In this document: piece after piece, positions 16,794 to 32,343 of the stretch | Layout: each line of letters starts with the position of its first letter | How positions within the stretch are numbered: position 1 is the first letter of the stretch | NCBI RefSeq assembly: GCF_000768335.1 | Contig: NZ_AVPT01000030.1 | Location: 1 to 32,461 of the forward strand | DNA from: Lysobacter arseniciresistens ZS79 | Lineage (GTDB): Bacteria; Pseudomonadota; Gammaproteobacteria; Xanthomonadales; Xanthomonadaceae | Length of the DNA stretch: 32,461 nucleotides | Direction of reading: 5' to 3' | Translations under genes and position numbers: made by a program | The notes under the pieces: generated by a model | Databases searched by the model: none | What the model saw: only the letters and a program-made list of their open reading frames with translations | What the model was told of the DNA's origin: nothing

Positions 16794-17012
16794 TTACTTC
16801 ATGCGGTAGGTGATGCGACCCTTGGTCAGGTCGTACGGGGTCATCTCCACCTTGACCTTGTCGCCGGTGAGGATGCGGATGTAGTTCTTGCGCATCCGCC
16901 CGGAGATGTGGGCGATGATCTCGTGCCCGTTTTCGAGGCGCACACGGAACATGGTGTTCGGAAGGGTTTCCGCCACCGTGCCCTCGAATTCGATCACGTC
17001 GTCTTTTGCCAT
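16794..17012 (-). CDS. infA: Translation initiation factor IF-1
   Basis: A 72-residue protein, exactly the usual IF-1 length, with the S1/OB-fold sequence [18 protein letters not shown], then [27 protein letters not shown]. It binds the ribosomal A site during initiation and assists IF2 and IF3. The start at 17012 has AGGAA a few bases upstream. Location between clpA and aat is the common gammaproteobacterial arrangement. The same frame stays open far upstream, but only this part is IF-1. Confidence 0.98.
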
Positions 17013-27267: not shown

Positions 27268-28293
27268 ATGCGCATTCGCAAAACACTGGTGGCGTCAGCG
27301 GTCTTCCTGGCGCTTGGTTTCACCGCCCCCGCGTGGGCTCAGTCGGCCGACGAAACCGGCAACGGCGACCTCGACCAGGACATCGACGACAGCTACAACG
27401 ACCAGAGCACCGCGCTCGACCTGGCGCTCGACCTCGACGCGTCGCAGACCGACGACCACAGCGGCGACGACCGCAACAACGACGGCGAAGCCAACGCCGA
27501 CGGCCTCGGCAACGCGGCGGCCAACAACCACAGCAACGCGACGGCCAACTGGGAAAGCTCGTTCAATACCAACGTCGCGGTTGCGTCCACCGAGCTCAAC
27601 GGTTCGGTCAGCGGCGTCGGCGTGGGCGACATCGGCAACTTCGCCGGCAACAGCGGCGACGCCGATGGCGGCGACGGCGGCATGGGCGGCTGGGGCTTCG
27701 GCGGTGACGGCGACGGTGGCGACGGCGATGGCGGCGATGGCGCCGACAGCGGCGATTCGACCGCGGCCAGCCTCCGGTTGGGCAGCGCGTCGGCCGACAG
27801 CGGCGACGCGGACTCCGATGCCGATGCCGATTCCGACAGCGACGCGTCCGCCGGCTCGATCGCGGCGGCGATCGCGGCCGCGCTGGAGGACAACAACGGC
27901 GACGCCGACGCGGATGCCGATGCCGACTCCGACGCCAATGCCGACTCGGGCGACTCCGACTCCTCGGCGACCGCGAGCGCCGACAGCGGCGACGCAAGTG
28001 CCAGCGACTCCGGCAGCAGCGGCAACGCGGTGGCCAGCACCGGCCGTGGCGGTGATGGCGGCCGTGGCGTCGGTGGCGACGGCAACGGCGGCAACGGCAA
28101 CGGCGGCGATGGCGGGCGCGGCGGCAACGGCGGCTCGATCGCCAACGACGCCGGCAGCTTCGACATGTCCAACCACATGAACGGATCGGCCAACGCGGCC
28201 GCCGGCATCATGGTGGTGGCGCAGAACAGTGGCGCGGCCTCGCTGATCCAGCAGGGCGTCACCGTCCAGGCCAACCTGACCGTCGGCCAGTAA
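27268..28293 (+). CDS. Secreted acidic Gly/Asp/Ser-rich repeat protein, candidate amyloid or adhesin subunit
   Basis: A 341-residue exported protein with a clear signal peptide (MRIRKTLVASAVFLALGFTA, cleaved after AWA at 24). Residues 28-125 are Asp/Asn-rich with SNATANWESSFNTNVAVAS, a stretch of strand-forming Asn/Thr/Val sequence. Residues 125-165 are Gly/Asp repeats (GDGDGGDGDGGDG), 170-250 are Asp/Ala/Ser runs (DADADADSDAN), and 258-290 are Gly/Asn/Asp/Arg-rich. The C-terminal 45 residues return to complex sequence with VAQNSGAASLIQQGVTVQAN (317-336), related to the end of the next gene product. No cysteine is present. The highly acidic runs could bind calcium. Composition, position before a C39 peptidase and a coiled-coil barrel suggest the fibre subunit role of Pseudomonas FapC; sequence identity to FapC is not evident. 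The start has AAAGGAGA at ideal spacing. Confidence 0.75.
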   Translation: MRIRKTLVASAVFLALGFTAPAWAQSADETGNGDLDQDIDDSYNDQSTALDLALDLDASQTDDHSGDDRNNDGEANADGLGNAAANNHSNATANWESSFNTNVAVASTELNGSVSGVGVGDIGNFAGNSGDADGGDGGMGGWGFGGDGDGGDGDGGDGADSGDSTAASLRLGSASADSGDADSDADADSDSDASAGSIAAAIAAALEDNNGDADADADADSDANADSGDSDSSATASADSGDASASDSGSSGNAVASTGRGGDGGRGVGGDGNGGNGNGGDGGRGGNGGSIANDAGSFDMSNHMNGSANAAAGIMVVAQNSGAASLIQQGVTVQANLTVGQ

Positions 28294-28302
28294 CCGGTGC
28301 AT

Positions 28303-28338
28303 CCCGCGTCGCGGCCACTCATGGTGCCGCGACGCGGG
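28303..28338 (+). promoter_or_regulatory. Very strong intra-operon hairpin without T-tract
   Basis: CCCGCGTCGCGGC (28303-28315) and GCCGCGACGCGGG (28326-28338) form a perfect 13-bp stem with a 10-base loop, starting 10 bp after the stop of the repeat-protein gene. No T-run follows. Likely roles are partial termination or mRNA 3'-end stabilisation that raises the level of the subunit over the downstream genes. Confidence 0.7.
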
Positions 28339-28428
28339 CCCGACAGCGGCCATCGAGCAGCGTGGAAGGCGGCAGCGGCGACGTTGCCGCCACCCTGCAC
28401 CGGCGGACCGCCGCACAGGAGTATCGAC

Positions 28429-28845
28429 ATGTGCCCCCGAAACTTCCTCCGCCCCGCGTGGGGCGTCCTGCTGGCGGTCGCCTCGTGCTGGGCGCTGCCG
28501 CTGCTGGCCGCTCCCGACGGATTTCAACCCGCCGCGTCCGTTCCGGTGGAACCGCCCGGGCAGGCACCGGTCACCGGCCTCGGCGCCGCGCTCGGCCTCG
28601 ACCGCCTCGACCGCCTGCGCGGTGGCGACGGGGTCGACCTCGACCTGGTCGAGAACACCGCGCGCACCAGCGGCGAGGTGGCCGACAACCACGCCGAGAG
28701 CATCCTCAGCGGCAATAACACGCTGTCGGGCGAAGCCTTCTCCGGGGCCAGCGGCATCAACACCGCGATCCAGAACAGCGGCTCCAACGTCCTGATCCAG
28801 AACGCGACCGTGGTCAACGTGCGGTTCGGGGACCCGGGCCCGTGA
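28429..28845 (+). CDS. Small exported protein with double-glycine motif, Fap-like operon
   Basis: A 138-residue protein with a signal peptide (MCPRNFLRPAWGVLLAVASC, cleaved near LLAA at about 28). After a Pro-rich stretch comes LDRLDRLRGG (57-66): counting back from the second Gly, positions -4, -7 and -12 are Leu, the spacing of a classical double-glycine leader cut by C39 peptidases. The part after it (DGVDLDLVENTARTSGEVAD, then LSGNNTLSGEAFSGASGINT) is Asn/Ser/Gly-rich and strand-prone, ending in IQNSGSNVLIQNATVVNV (114-131), like the end of the upstream repeat protein. AGGAG lies 7 bases before the ATG. Its stop TGA overlaps a possible GTG start of the peptidase gene. It may be a minor fibre subunit or nucleator (FapB-like role); function is inferred from context only. 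Confidence 0.78.
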   Translation: MCPRNFLRPAWGVLLAVASCWALPLLAAPDGFQPAASVPVEPPGQAPVTGLGAALGLDRLDRLRGGDGVDLDLVENTARTSGEVADNHAESILSGNNTLSGEAFSGASGINTAIQNSGSNVLIQNATVVNVRFGDPGP

Positions 28846-28856
28846 GGCGACCGTGC

Positions 28857-29552
28857 ATGCGCGCCGGCATCCTTGCGCCGGGGCTGGCGCTGGCGCTGGC
28901 GCTGGCGCTGCCGTGCCTGGCGACGGCGTCGTCGCTCGGCGTGCGCACGCCGCAGGGCGGGGCGTACATGCTAAAGGTCACCAGCCTGAAGGAAGCGCGC
29001 TACGCAACCACGGTGCCGCAACAGTACGACTTCAGCTGCGGCTCGGCGGCGACCGCGACCCTGCTGACCTACCAGTACGGGCATCCGGTCAGCGAGCAGG
29101 ACGTGTTCGTGCGGATGTACCGCGATGGCGATCGCGCGCGGATCCGCGCCGAAGGGTTCTCGCTGCTCGACATGCGGCGTTACCTGGAGTCGCTGGGCTT
29201 CGTCGCCGACGGTTTCGAGCTGCCGCTGGACAAGCTGGAGGAGGAGGGCCTGCCGGCGATCGTCCTGCTCAACGACCGCGGCTACCGCCACTTCGTGGTG
29301 GTCAAGGGCGTGCGCGACGGCCGGGTGCTGCTCGGCGACCCCGCCCGCGGCACCCGGGCGATGTCGCGCGAGCGCTTCGAGGCGCTGTGGGACAACGGCG
29401 TGCTGTTCGTGATCCACAACCGCCGCGAGCTGGCCGGCTTCAACCAGCCGCGCGACTGGCGCACCGCGCCCCCGGCGCCGCTGCAGACGGGCGTCGGTCG
29501 CCGCGGACTGGGGGATGTCGTGATTCCCAAGTTCGGGCCGGGAGACAGCTGA
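28857..29552 (+). CDS. Periplasmic C39-family cysteine peptidase (FapD-like)
   Basis: A 231-residue papain-like peptidase domain with its own signal peptide (Leu/Ala repeat helix, cleaved near ATA at about 24) and no ABC-transporter part. Catalytic residues: oxyanion Gln in QQYDFSCG (55-62), Cys61, His145 (RGYRHFVVVKG) and Asp161 (LLGDPARGT). C39 peptidases typically cut double-glycine leaders; stand-alone exported ones occur in Fap-type operons as FapD. The ATG at 28857 has GAGG 9 bases upstream; a GTG at 28842 overlapping the previous stop is the alternative start. The flanking genes both encode exported proteins with double-glycine-like motifs, the likely substrates. Confidence 0.88.
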   Translation: MRAGILAPGLALALALALPCLATASSLGVRTPQGGAYMLKVTSLKEARYATTVPQQYDFSCGSAATATLLTYQYGHPVSEQDVFVRMYRDGDRARIRAEGFSLLDMRRYLESLGFVADGFELPLDKLEEEGLPAIVLLNDRGYRHFVVVKGVRDGRVLLGDPARGTRAMSRERFEALWDNGVLFVIHNRRELAGFNQPRDWRTAPPAPLQTGVGRRGLGDVVIPKFGPGDS

Positions 29553-30049
29553 TGGACGCAGGCGGCCGGGCTTTCGTCACCGCGTTGCTGGCGATGGCCA
29601 GTGCCGGCGTCTGCGCCGGCGAGGGCAGGGCGGCGCTGGGCCCCGAGTGGGTCGCGATGCCGCTGGAGCGGCTGGACCACATGCGCGGCGGCTTCGAGCT
29701 GCCGTCGGGACTGGTGCTGTCGTTCGGCATCGAACGGCTGGTCTACATCGACGGCAATCTCGTGGCGCAGGCCAGCGTGCGCATCCCCGACGTCAGCGCG
29801 ATCACGCCGGAGCAGGCGCTGGAGCTTGCACGAATGAAACAGGGGATGGTCGTCCAGGTCGGCGGCGGCAACACGTTTGTCCCATCAGGCACGGTCGATG
29901 GCGTGGTGATCCAGAACACGGTGGACGGTACCCGCATCAACGCCCTGACCACGCTCGACGTTGGCGTCGGGACGCTCGGAATGTTCCAGAACCTCAACGC
30001 CGGCGCCGCGCTGCAGGACGCCCTCAACCGGGCGCCCGGCTCGCCCTGA
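29552..30049 (+). CDS. Second small exported protein with double-glycine motif, Fap-like operon
   Basis: A 165-residue protein whose ATG overlaps the peptidase stop by one base (TGATG), with GGGAGA upstream. A signal peptide (about 1-22, ending VCA) is followed by MPLERLDHMRGG (36-47): Met at -4, Leu at -7 and Met at -12 from the second Gly, again the spacing of a double-glycine leader. The remainder has LVLSFGIERLVYIDGNLVAQ, a VVQVGGGNTFVPSG turn, and GVVIQNTVDGTRINALTTLD followed by a helix ending QDALNR. The QNT segment echoes the QNS motif in the two upstream subunit-like proteins. The end resembles small conserved proteins I associate with Fap-type operons, but I cannot name a family. 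Function unknown. Confidence 0.78.
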   Translation: MDAGGRAFVTALLAMASAGVCAGEGRAALGPEWVAMPLERLDHMRGGFELPSGLVLSFGIERLVYIDGNLVAQASVRIPDVSAITPEQALELARMKQGMVVQVGGGNTFVPSGTVDGVVIQNTVDGTRINALTTLDVGVGTLGMFQNLNAGAALQDALNRAPGSP

Positions 30050-30077
30050 CACCCACCTCAAGGACAGGCTCGTCGCG

Positions 30078-31271
30078 ATGAACAATCACAGCGGGTGCGC
30101 CACCGTCGCCACGGTGGTGATAGCCAACTGCCTGTCGCTCGCGGTGGCCGGCCAGGTGCGCGCGCAGGCCGTGTCGCCCAACCCGCGGCTGGATGCGCTG
30201 CAACAGCAGGTCGACGCGCAGAACCAGCGGCTGGACGAACTGCGCGACCAGCTCGCCGCGCAGGAGCACAACGTCGCCGAGTTGCAACGCGCGCTCGACA
30301 TGGAGCGGCTGGCGACGACGCGCGCACGCGGCACCGCGGATGGCGCGGGGCAGGGCGCACCGGTCGCGATGGATACCGCGGCCTCGGCCACCGCTGCGCT
30401 GGCCGCCTCGGTCGCCGCGCAATCCGCCCCCGGCGCGCAGGACGACGTGGAGCCCGACCCCCACGTTCCGGCTGCCACCGCCGTCGCGCAGGCGGGCGAG
30501 CCACCCGACCAGCCCGTCGGCCGCGCCCCCGAGCAGGACCTCCGCCCGCCCGAGGTCGCGCAGATCTTCGACCAGCCCGGCGTGCTGACCCCCGCGGGCA
30601 CGTTCATCCTCGAACCCTCGCTGCAGTTCGGCTACTCCTCCAGCAACCGCGTCGCGCTGGTCGGCTACACCATCATCCCGGCGATCCTGATCGGCCTGAT
30701 CGACGTCCGCCAGGTCAAGACCAGCACCGGTACCGCGGCGCTCACCGGGCGCATGGGCATCGGCAACCGGTTCGAACTGGAAGCACGGGTGCCGTACGTC
30801 TACAGCAGCAGCGACACCGTCAGCCGCGAGATCTTCACCGGCACCGCGGTCGAGAACGTGTTCACCTCCAGCGGCAAGGGGCTGGGCGACATCGAGGCGA
30901 CCGCGCGCATGCAGCTCAACCGGGGCGGCCCGGACAAACCCTTCTACGTCGGCTGGCTGCGCTACAAGAGCCGCACCGGCAAGGATCCGTTCGAGGTCGT
31001 CACCGATTGCGTGACCCGCTGCGTGGCCAATGCCACCGGCACCGGCCTGCCGCTGGAGCTGCCCACCGGCAGCGGCTTCGCGTCCCTCCAGCCGGGGATC
31101 ACCTGGCTGTACCCGTCCGACCCGGTAGTGTTCTTCGGCAGCGTCAGCTACCTGCACAACTTCAAGCGCGATGGGGTCTCGCGCACGGTGCTGACCGGCG
31201 CGCCGCCGGAGTTCCCGCAGACCGCGACCGAGCCGATCGGCGAAGTCGGGGGCGTACCCGGATACGGGTAA
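30078..31271 (+). CDS. FapF-like outer-membrane beta-barrel with coiled coil, apparently 3'-truncated
   Basis: A 397-residue protein: signal peptide to about 29 (VRA), coiled coil 36-80 (LDALQQQVDAQNQRLDELRD and on), an Ala/Pro-rich acidic linker (85-165), and from about 172 a beta-barrel region starting LTPAGTFILEPSLQFGYSSS, with VGYTIIPAILIGLIDV, NRFELEARVPYVYSSSDTV and KGLGDIEATARMQLN. This order matches Pseudomonas FapF, a trimeric barrel that exports Fap subunits, and the barrel opening resembles its relatives. FapF barrels have about 320 residues and end in an aromatic residue; here only about 225 remain and the protein ends GEVGGVPGYG. The missing last third, at the exact junction with the KfrA module, argues that the gene is broken. 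Whether any export remains is doubtful. Confidence 0.72.
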   Translation: MNNHSGCATVATVVIANCLSLAVAGQVRAQAVSPNPRLDALQQQVDAQNQRLDELRDQLAAQEHNVAELQRALDMERLATTRARGTADGAGQGAPVAMDTAASATAALAASVAAQSAPGAQDDVEPDPHVPAATAVAQAGEPPDQPVGRAPEQDLRPPEVAQIFDQPGVLTPAGTFILEPSLQFGYSSSNRVALVGYTIIPAILIGLIDVRQVKTSTGTAALTGRMGIGNRFELEARVPYVYSSSDTVSREIFTGTAVENVFTSSGKGLGDIEATARMQLNRGGPDKPFYVGWLRYKSRTGKDPFEVVTDCVTRCVANATGTGLPLELPTGSGFASLQPGITWLYPSDPVVFFGSVSYLHNFKRDGVSRTVLTGAPPEFPQTATEPIGEVGGVPGYG

Positions 31272-31275
31272 AATT
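31255..31275. other. Junction between Fap-like operon and KfrA module, with small inverted repeat
   Basis: TACCCG-GATA-CGGGTA (31255-31270) is a perfect inverted repeat covering the last codons of the truncated barrel gene. The adjoining GGATACGGGTAAAATT (31260-31275) agrees at 11 of 16 positions with GGATAATGGTGAATTA (32440-32455) in the palindrome at the window end. This could mark two ends of an inserted element. Confidence 0.35.
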
Positions 31276-31296
31276 GGGTCATAAGCCGTAGGGATC

Positions 31297-32343
31297 CTAT
31301 GAGTGGCTCGGATCTGATTTCGCGGCCTTTGCAGCCTTAGCCTCCGGCGGCATCTGCACCCTCGCAAGCATTTCTTCCAGTGCCTGCAGACGTCCGCCCA
31401 TGCGTGACAAGTCCGCTTCGGACAGCCGTCGACGGTCGCGCTCTGCCTCCAGGTCGGCCTGGGAAGTCGCCAGCTCCGTGCGGAGTCGTTCGTTGGCCTG
31501 CAGCTCCTTGGACCAGCAGGCTTCCAGTGTCTGCTGATCTTGGGCCTGAGCTTTCAGCTCTTCGATCTCGTGCTGCAGCTGCAAATGTTCAGCGCGTGCC
31601 TGGCCGCGCTCCTTCTCAAGCTGGCCCAGCTGCACCGCCATCTTCACGTTATCGCGACTCAACTGCATCAGCTCGTGGTTCTTGCCAGTCAGTCCTTCGT
31701 TCGCCTGCCGGAGTTCAACCTGCAACCCTTGCACTTGATGCTCGTGCCGACGTTGCTCCTGGTCGCGTTGCTCTTTCACTGAGGTCCGGTAGTGCTCCAG
31801 CGCTTCGCGGGCGTGCTGGTGCTTTTGTTCCAGTGATTCGACATGAGCCTCATGCTCGGCCAGGCGCGTGGTCAGGCCGGCGACGCGCTCGCCGAGCTGC
31901 GCCACCTCAGTCACCCTTCCGGCCAGGGCTTGTGCTGTGGCGGCATGGGTGACCTGTTCGTCGTGCAAGGCGGTTTCGGTGCGCTGGAGCTGGGCGCTCA
32001 GCGCGGCCGTCTCCTGCTGCAGGCGTTCCAGTGCCTGGCTGCGCTCCTGCAATTGCGCGTCGAAACGCTGCCGCGCCTCGGCAACCAGGGCCTCGGCTTC
32101 CTCGTGCAAGCGGCCGGCGAGCCGGCCGATCAGATCCTGCAGCGCGTCGCTGACTGCGACCTTCGCACCGACACCGGCGCCTTCCTCTTCTTCGAGTTCC
32201 TTGAGGTAGCGATGGATTGTGGTCTTCGAGCCGGTGTTGCCCAGCGCCACCCGCAGGGCGTCGATCGACGGGTGCTTCCCCTGTACGAGCAATGTCGCCC
32301 GGGCCTTCTGGACATCGGATTTATACAAGCCGCCGCGTGCCAT
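31297..32343 (-). CDS. KfrA-like DNA-binding protein with long coiled coil
   Basis: A 348-residue protein with an N-terminal KfrA-type DNA-binding domain (about 1-60: YKSDVQKARATLLVQGKHPS, LRVALGNTGSKTTIHRYLKEL) and then an almost continuous coiled coil to about residue 335, rich in Gln, Glu and Leu heptads. KfrA proteins of IncP plasmids bind their own promoter and aid plasmid stability or segregation; homologs occur on integrative elements. It has GGAG 5 bases before the ATG. Upstream are TTACAT repeats likely to be its operator. Its base composition is visibly less GC-rich than the neighbours, and the upstream 110 bp are AT-rich, supporting transfer. It faces the truncated barrel gene, 25 bp between stops. 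Confidence 0.86.
   Translation of the reverse strand: MARGGLYKSDVQKARATLLVQGKHPSIDALRVALGNTGSKTTIHRYLKELEEEEGAGVGAKVAVSDALQDLIGRLAGRLHEEAEALVAEARQRFDAQLQERSQALERLQQETAALSAQLQRTETALHDEQVTHAATAQALAGRVTEVAQLGERVAGLTTRLAEHEAHVESLEQKHQHAREALEHYRTSVKEQRDQEQRRHEHQVQGLQVELRQANEGLTGKNHELMQLSRDNVKMAVQLGQLEKERGQARAEHLQLQHEIEELKAQAQDQQTLEACWSKELQANERLRTELATSQADLEAERDRRRLSEADLSRMGGRLQALEEMLARVQMPPEAKAAKAAKSDPSHS

Follow-up and report, generated by a model that had tools for sequence, protein, structure and literature searches.

Secretion of the Pseudomonas Fap amyloid (FapA-F) requires the activity of the C39 peptidase FapD and its Cys, with the FapD C38A substitution abolishing FapC secretion (PMC5557850, 2017). 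In the accessible text of the same paper, FapE is the sole Fap protein with full N-terminal processing and alone lacks N-terminal peptides, FapA showed no processing, Fap proteins are described as being without canonical C39 sequences (GG and GA motifs being pointed to), and FapE is considered the likely FapD substrate, with FapF another possibility. The target of FapD is called unclear in papers of 2017-2020, PMC5557850 included, and a 2023 paper states, in its accessible part, that FapD modifies FapC (PMC10638192). Within the accessible parts of the literature searched (PMC5557850, PMC6173800, PMC6173795, PMC7764130, PMC10853474, PMC10638192, PMC12392863, PMC3897388, and PMC6363468), neither a FapD cut site nor the motif described below is named. 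Double-glycine leaders of bacteriocin type are quoted as following the pattern LSX2ELX2IXGG (PMC3897388, accessible text), and the C39 sites named in the accessible text of PMC6363468 are GG, GA, and GS, with GR, GK, and GQ not among them.

The DNA analyzed here is a 32,461-nucleotide stretch from Lysobacter arseniciresistens ZS79 (hereafter the window), which carries at its end, on the + strand at 27268-31271, a Fap-like operon with the gene order A0, A1, C39 peptidase, A2, pore. From A1 onward the genes overlap or sit close together. The original prediction held that two exported proteins with double-glycine motifs flank a periplasmic C39 peptidase, and its coordinates, reading frames, and residue numbers were all right; the Fap-like character of the operon, the FapE leader with GR or GK, and the broken pore gene are points beyond it. 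The features are as follows.

27268-28293, + strand: A0, a large exported repeat protein rich in Gly and Asp, putatively a subunit of a fibre or adhesin
28429-28845, + strand: A1, a small exported protein with a signal peptide-like N-terminus, a GG leader, and a conserved C-terminal IQN segment
28588-28626, + strand: leader motif of A1, ALGLDRLDRLRGG, with cleavage predicted to follow residue 66
28842-29552, + strand (GTG start): stand-alone C39 cysteine peptidase with a signal peptide-like N-terminus
29552-30049, + strand: A2, a small exported protein in the FapE gene position, with a GG leader
29654-29692, + strand: leader motif of A2, AMPLERLDHMRGG, with cleavage predicted to follow residue 47
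30078-31271, + strand: FapF-like outer-membrane pore gene, 5' part only, with the 3' part on another contig
31248-31281, no strand: 34 bases common to both pore-gene break points, 91% match to G000:C20:41966-41999
31297-32343, - strand: KfrA_N-type DNA-binding gene (PF11740, E 1.6e-27), taken as part of an inserted element and outside the system

The layout resembles that of Pseudomonas Fap in having a Sec-exported stand-alone C39 peptidase, a small exported protein directly downstream followed by a FapF-type pore, and a repeat-rich exported protein upstream. Nevertheless, the individual proteins differ from their Fap counterparts: the C39 protein scored 146.9 bits against the FapD model (NCBIfam NF058616), for which the cut-off is 330, and the pore gene, which is cut short, scored 100.8 bits against FapF (NF058560), for which it is 700. 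At E 10, A2 had no match to FapE (NF058559) and A1 none to FapA (NF058617, NF058556); at the same threshold neither A1 nor A2 matched any Pfam or NCBIfam family, and the fibre candidate A0 matched no family model. The C-terminal segment of A0 matches the A1 profile (E 1.9e-7, in a one-sequence search), and A1 and A2 likewise have a C-terminal segment in common (hhalign 92%). These common segments would perhaps represent a docking or fibre-forming tail. In A0 and A1 the common C-terminal segment reads QNSG..LIQ...

The 236-residue C39 peptidase clearly belongs to Pfam PF03412 (E 2.5e-22; 79.6 bits against a cut-off of 22). The catalytic Cys, written Cys61 in the original prediction, is residue 61 when counted from the ATG and 66 from the GTG at 28842. 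In GTG numbering, Q60, C66, H150, and D166 are invariant in 33 C39 sequences, and the triad is intact; the Gln of C39 peptidases has been proposed for the oxyanion. The structural model, with pLDDT of at least 90 at 127 of the 236 residues, matches the folds of PCAT1, ComA, and the LahT-leader complex 6mpz, and the enzyme would cut after a double-glycine leader. With the window C39 as query, this genome yielded a single additional C39 gene at E 0.01, which likewise stands alone.

In A1 the GG occupies residues 65-66, with L63 at -4, L60 at -7, and L55 at -12; in A2 it occupies residues 46-47, with M44, L41, and M36 at the same positions. On sequence, both sites have the pattern quoted for double-glycine leaders (LSX2ELX2IXGG). 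That GG is accompanied by hydrophobic -4, -7, and -12 residues in both small proteins, as originally noted, was borne out at both window sites at a level far from chance. A leader matrix derived from 68 A2 sites (loci L159-L227, none named as Lysobacteraceae) was run on the 271 stop-to-stop ORFs of at least 60 residues in the window and placed the two named sites first and second, at 21.3 and 16.0 bits, with the third-best site, at 16841, reaching 9.3 bits. None of 2000 shuffles of either protein reached the score of its leader. A0 carries no leader motif by this measure, its best score of -0.9 being equalled or beaten by 1135 of 2000 shuffles. The motif was also said to follow a Sec signal peptide, and by a crude hydropathy test the N-terminal stretches are hydrophobic in the manner typical of Sec signals. 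The A2 model (mean pLDDT 79) has a helix at residues 38-44, coil at the GG, and strands from residue 55, and thus predicts a leader site outside the folded part; confidence around the motif is moderate (block means of 76 and 62). Helix followed by coil at the site is also the arrangement described for the LahT-leader complex (PMC6363468, accessible text). A fold search with A2 gave nothing useful (best E 0.32).

To define the window's family, the C39 protein was searched against 198 genomes, 79 of which had a match, and the best 30 loci, the window included, were retained. All 60 sites of these loci have L at -7, R at -3, and G at -2 and -1, together with V, L, I, or M at -12 and L, M, I, or Y at -4 (Y in two), so that the window sites and every family site have the GG and the hydrophobic -4, -7, and -12 of a double-glycine leader. 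Each of the 60 proteins contains a single RGG, and hence no choice of site was involved. The GG ends at residues 41-91 in A1 and 42-63 in A2. The crude hydropathy test, an untrained predictor, was passed by 28 of 30 A1 and 30 of 30 A2 proteins in the family; among the A2 proteins at the named loci L148-L227, 67 of 78 passed the crude signal-peptide test and 11 failed. An alignment of 38 A2 sequences (the window and 37 of 70 usable relatives) has nine invariant columns, four of which are L(-7), R(-3), G(-2), and G(-1).

Beyond the family, A1 and A2 profiles built from the part after the GG alone were run on six-frame translations of 141 further loci, giving 97 A2 and 116 A1 matches at E < 1e-3. 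Because the profiles hold only the post-GG part, these homologues were found without the motif. Sites were chosen by the family matrix from the 90 residues before each match to its first residues, a procedure that favours motif-like sites, and the counts that follow leave out the family loci L148-L158. The A2 site ends in RGG in 85 of 86 matches; within these 85, L is at -7 in 84, one of L/I/V/M/F/Y/A is at -12 in all, and -4 is hydrophobic in 71, counting A and Y. An alternative pick, taking the closest RGG to the match that has L/I/V/M/F at -7, gave a site in 97 of 97 matches. A1 is more variable: its 104 matches in 90 loci, some of which are larger upstream proteins with an A1-like end, have GG in 71 and RGG in 55, and no GG at the best site in 33. 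Within the 71 GG sites, L is at -7 in 66, and -12 is one of L/I/V/M/F/Y/A in 65, as is -4 in 46; the last two residues of the A1 site in window-type loci are at times GR, GK, GT, GM, or AK. With repeats removed (L175 duplicates the L131 record, and L127 has a tandem copy), the best site ends in GG in 83 of 84 distinct A2 matches and 70 of 102 A1 matches; taking the best match per locus, the figures are 84 of 85 loci for A2 and 68 of 90 for A1.

Information content in 68 A2 sites is 4.32 bits at -7, -3, -2, and -1 and 3.14 bits at -12, as compared with 0.7-1.2 bits at positions -22 to -14 (save -15, often W, at 2.15 bits). Post-site positions are also high in A2 (3.91 bits at +1, 3.30 at +6, and 3.10 at +15). 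The -4 position is the weakest, with L/I/V/M/F in 51% of the 68 sites, and outside the family it is often A, T, Y, H, or S. Thus the expectation that GG and the -4, -7, and -12 residues would be conserved above their surroundings held for GG, -7, and -12, with -4 weak outside the window's family. Positions -5, -6, and -8 to -11 have L/I/V/M/F in at most 3% of the 68 sites, and this distribution matches one face of a helix docked in the LahT manner. At one locus, L114, a third small exported protein lies at +1644 to +1974 (oriented) from the C39 match and carries LSAQELGEVSGA followed by GLA, a site that reads as a near-textbook leader of the GA type.

The leaders are also tied to the C39 gene by position. 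When a matrix of the 60 family sites was run on 6711 ORFs of 69 outside-family loci, drawn from the best 80 of the scan (Lysobacteraceae, Rhodanobacteraceae, Burkholderiaceae, Comamonadaceae, Oxalobacteraceae, and others), 146 matches scored at least 10 bits, as against eight among the same number of shuffled ORFs. As many as 132 of the 146, spread over 68 of the 69 loci, share the strand of the C39 gene and lie no more than 1.8 kb from it, and in 49 of 69 loci there is a leader match on each side of it. A1 and A2 have the leader in common, differ in their post-GG sequences, and have the same C39 gene between them; given their common C-terminal segment (hhalign 92%), the shared leader could partly be common descent. 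Taken together, the genomic evidence strongly suggests an enzyme-substrate link between the C39 peptidase and A1/A2.

Given that window-type operons keep a plain GG leader, a similar leader ending in GR or GK stands out in FapE. FapE was located as the gene after fapD by an ORF rule at 26 of 27 Fap-type loci (L100 was missed), and NCBIfam models confirm FapD, FapE, and FapA at locus L088. All 26 FapE proteins examined carry LxDxELxxhRG[RK] after the signal peptide (e.g., LKDQELATLRGR and LSDEELGGLRGR), with G at -2, R/K at -1, L/M at -7, and L/V/I at -12 in every case; R is at -3 in 23, E at -8 in 19, and D at -10 in 20, and Q is at -4 in three. A FapE-leader matrix run on 2296 ORFs of the same 27 loci found 35 sites of at least 12 bits, compared with two in shuffles. 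Of these sites, 27 were in the FapE position, eight elsewhere on the same strand, and none on the opposite strand; one of the eight is the second FapE of locus L096, and two or more do not resemble a leader. Conservation extends past the site in both A2 and FapE, most of all as F or Y at +1. When their mature parts alone are compared, A2 and FapE give an hhalign probability of 5%, which does not support homology, and we thus limit the claim to gene position and the N-terminal pattern, in which the two proteins are alike apart from the site itself, GR or GK in FapE and GG in the window. The FapE leader found here is an exact candidate site for FapD, different from the GG and GA motifs indicated in the accessible text of PMC5557850. 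FapA of L088 has a weak motif ending in ASG, the protein in the FapA place at L095 carries LGDADFARVSGG, and sites resembling the motif occur in small upstream proteins at some other Fap loci. FapA may thus be a second FapD substrate, although no FapA processing was seen in PMC5557850 (accessible text).

A further stand-alone C39 peptidase occurs in the putative pilus system Fil. The window C39 scored 120.4 bits against FilB (NCBIfam NF050078), where the cut-off is 475, and Fil-type loci were assigned here by C39 similarity and not by a FilB model scan. Like the window, they encode a nearby exported protein whose signal peptide is followed at once by a site such as LDDSALADVTGQ, seen at five of the six Fil-type loci looked at; unlike the window, the site has GQ and the enzymes form a separate C39 clade. 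At L139-L143 the exported proteins lie upstream of the C39 gene and LDDSALADVTGQ is followed by AGISI. These sites are likely C39 leaders with GQ. The -1 residue of A2/FapE was mapped on a tree of 129 C39 proteins, with G in 97, R or K in 26, and Q in six; it follows the tree with two changes, the fewest possible. With so few changes the weight is small, and the agreement counts as congruence, not proof. Hand-set labels were used for the six Q cases, taken from a protein other than A2/FapE, with the motif seen in five and not in L138. Thirteen of 142 C39 rows were unlabelled and left out (L100, L114, L122, L129, L133-L136, L144-L147, and L214), among which RGG occurs downstream at L114, L129, L133, L134, and L135 and in the upstream protein at L214, while no GG site was seen at L122 and L136. 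A strict coupling of the -1 residue to enzyme clade was also considered and dropped; it holds for A2/FapE and is broken by A1, with its GR, GK, GT, GM, and AK endings in window-type loci.

In this isolate the pore gene is split. Its 3' piece lies at G000:C20:41688-41966 (L234) and matches residues 374-466 of the Lysobacter concretionis homologue at L148. The 34 bases common to both break points are presumably a Tn3-family end, and a Tn3 transposase gene lies beyond them on contig C20, with the KfrA_N gene on the window side. Kin of the KfrA_N gene on Xanthomonas plasmids cover about 60% of the stretch at 73-76% identity among the matches listed. The pore gene was apparently split by a Tn3-type transposon, insertion being the simplest reading, with the whole element not visible in the contigs; this copy of the operon is thus probably not working, and the operon in this isolate probably cannot export. 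The genome holds a second Fap-like locus, L032 (G000:C10:77000-87000), which encodes four similar repeat proteins in tandem along with a C39 peptidase and a FapE-like protein with VDDATLSQVSGK, whose leader ends in SGK, and which has a complete-looking pore gene.

From the observed motif and its conservation, the gene order, and the enzyme fold of the predicted model, we propose, with a probability of roughly 0.8, that a C39 peptidase exported by Sec cleaves a GG-type leader off the Sec-exported minor subunits A1 and A2, freeing them for fibre export, and that the same logic applies to FapD and FapE. Judging from their signal peptide-like N-termini, A1, A2, and the peptidase would cross the inner membrane by Sec. 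Signal peptidase would leave a propeptide of about 20-40 residues, the last 13 of which would fold as an amphipathic helix with RGG at its end. In the periplasm, the C39 peptidase would accommodate the -12/-7/-4 side in a hydrophobic groove, in the way that LahT binds its own leader, and cut after the GG. The release of an assembly-competent subunit, as originally suggested, is an inference: freed A1 and A2 would serve as minor or initiating subunits for export of the repeat-rich fibre A0 via the FapF-like pore. In Pseudomonas Fap, FapD would cut FapE after RG[RK].

The leader might instead be bound and left uncut, the C39 protein being a periplasmic chaperone that hands substrates to the pore, like the C39-like domains of some type 1 systems. 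Such inactive domains exist, and the leader could be a pore-targeting signal, as suggested for the FapE N-terminus (PMC5557850, accessible text for both). We consider this unlikely, however, since Gln, Cys, His, and Asp are invariant in the 33 enzymes, FapD C38A abolishes secretion (PMC5557850, accessible text), and the G residues at -2 and -1 are invariant in 38 A2 sequences, which a binding helix alone would not need. The RGG could also be a structural element of the small proteins unrelated to the enzyme, consistent with the conserved post-site residues of A2 and FapE (chiefly F or Y at +1) and with the C-terminal segment common to A1 and A2, which may be distant kin. Yet A1 has the leader with a different sequence right after the site, the -12/-7 pattern with at most 3% L/I/V/M/F at -5, -6, and -8 to -11 fits a C39 groove, the third small protein at L114 carries the motif as well, and the predicted A2 model puts the site outside the fold, which makes a purely structural role very unlikely in our view. 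Two GC-rich genes might match by chance, L, R, and G being frequent residues in genomes of this kind, but this reading is refuted by the counts, both sites being the best of the 271 window ORFs and reached by none of 2000 shuffles each, and the motif is kept in relatives from several families; we put the odds of a chance match close to nil.

Extending the proposed leader removal to the related systems, we lean towards a single two-step route shared by periplasmic C39 peptidases that stand alone, whether of the FapD, FilB, or window type, in which Sec export would be followed by periplasmic removal of a bacteriocin-type leader, and the -1 residue of the downstream protein (G, R/K, or Q) would be set by the enzyme clade. 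The target of FapD would then be FapE, cut between R39 and Y40 (L088 numbering), and the window types would constitute an amyloid-like export family of their own, found in Lysobacteraceae, Rhodanobacteraceae, and Burkholderiales. For Fap, the FapE leader provides an exact predicted cut site and single-residue tests. Compared with the PCAT/AMS leaders of ComA, PCAT1, and LahT, the window system has the same hydrophobic -12, -7, and -4 residues, the same GG before the cut, the same C39 fold and triad, and, as predicted in A2, a helix before the site. In those transporters, however, the C39 peptidase is a cytosolic domain fused to an ABC exporter, whereas the window enzyme stands alone with a signal peptide-like N-terminus and its leader comes after a Sec-type signal peptide. 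Double-glycine processing, which is normally coupled to export out of the cytosol by ABC transporters, would here have been moved into the periplasm behind Sec.
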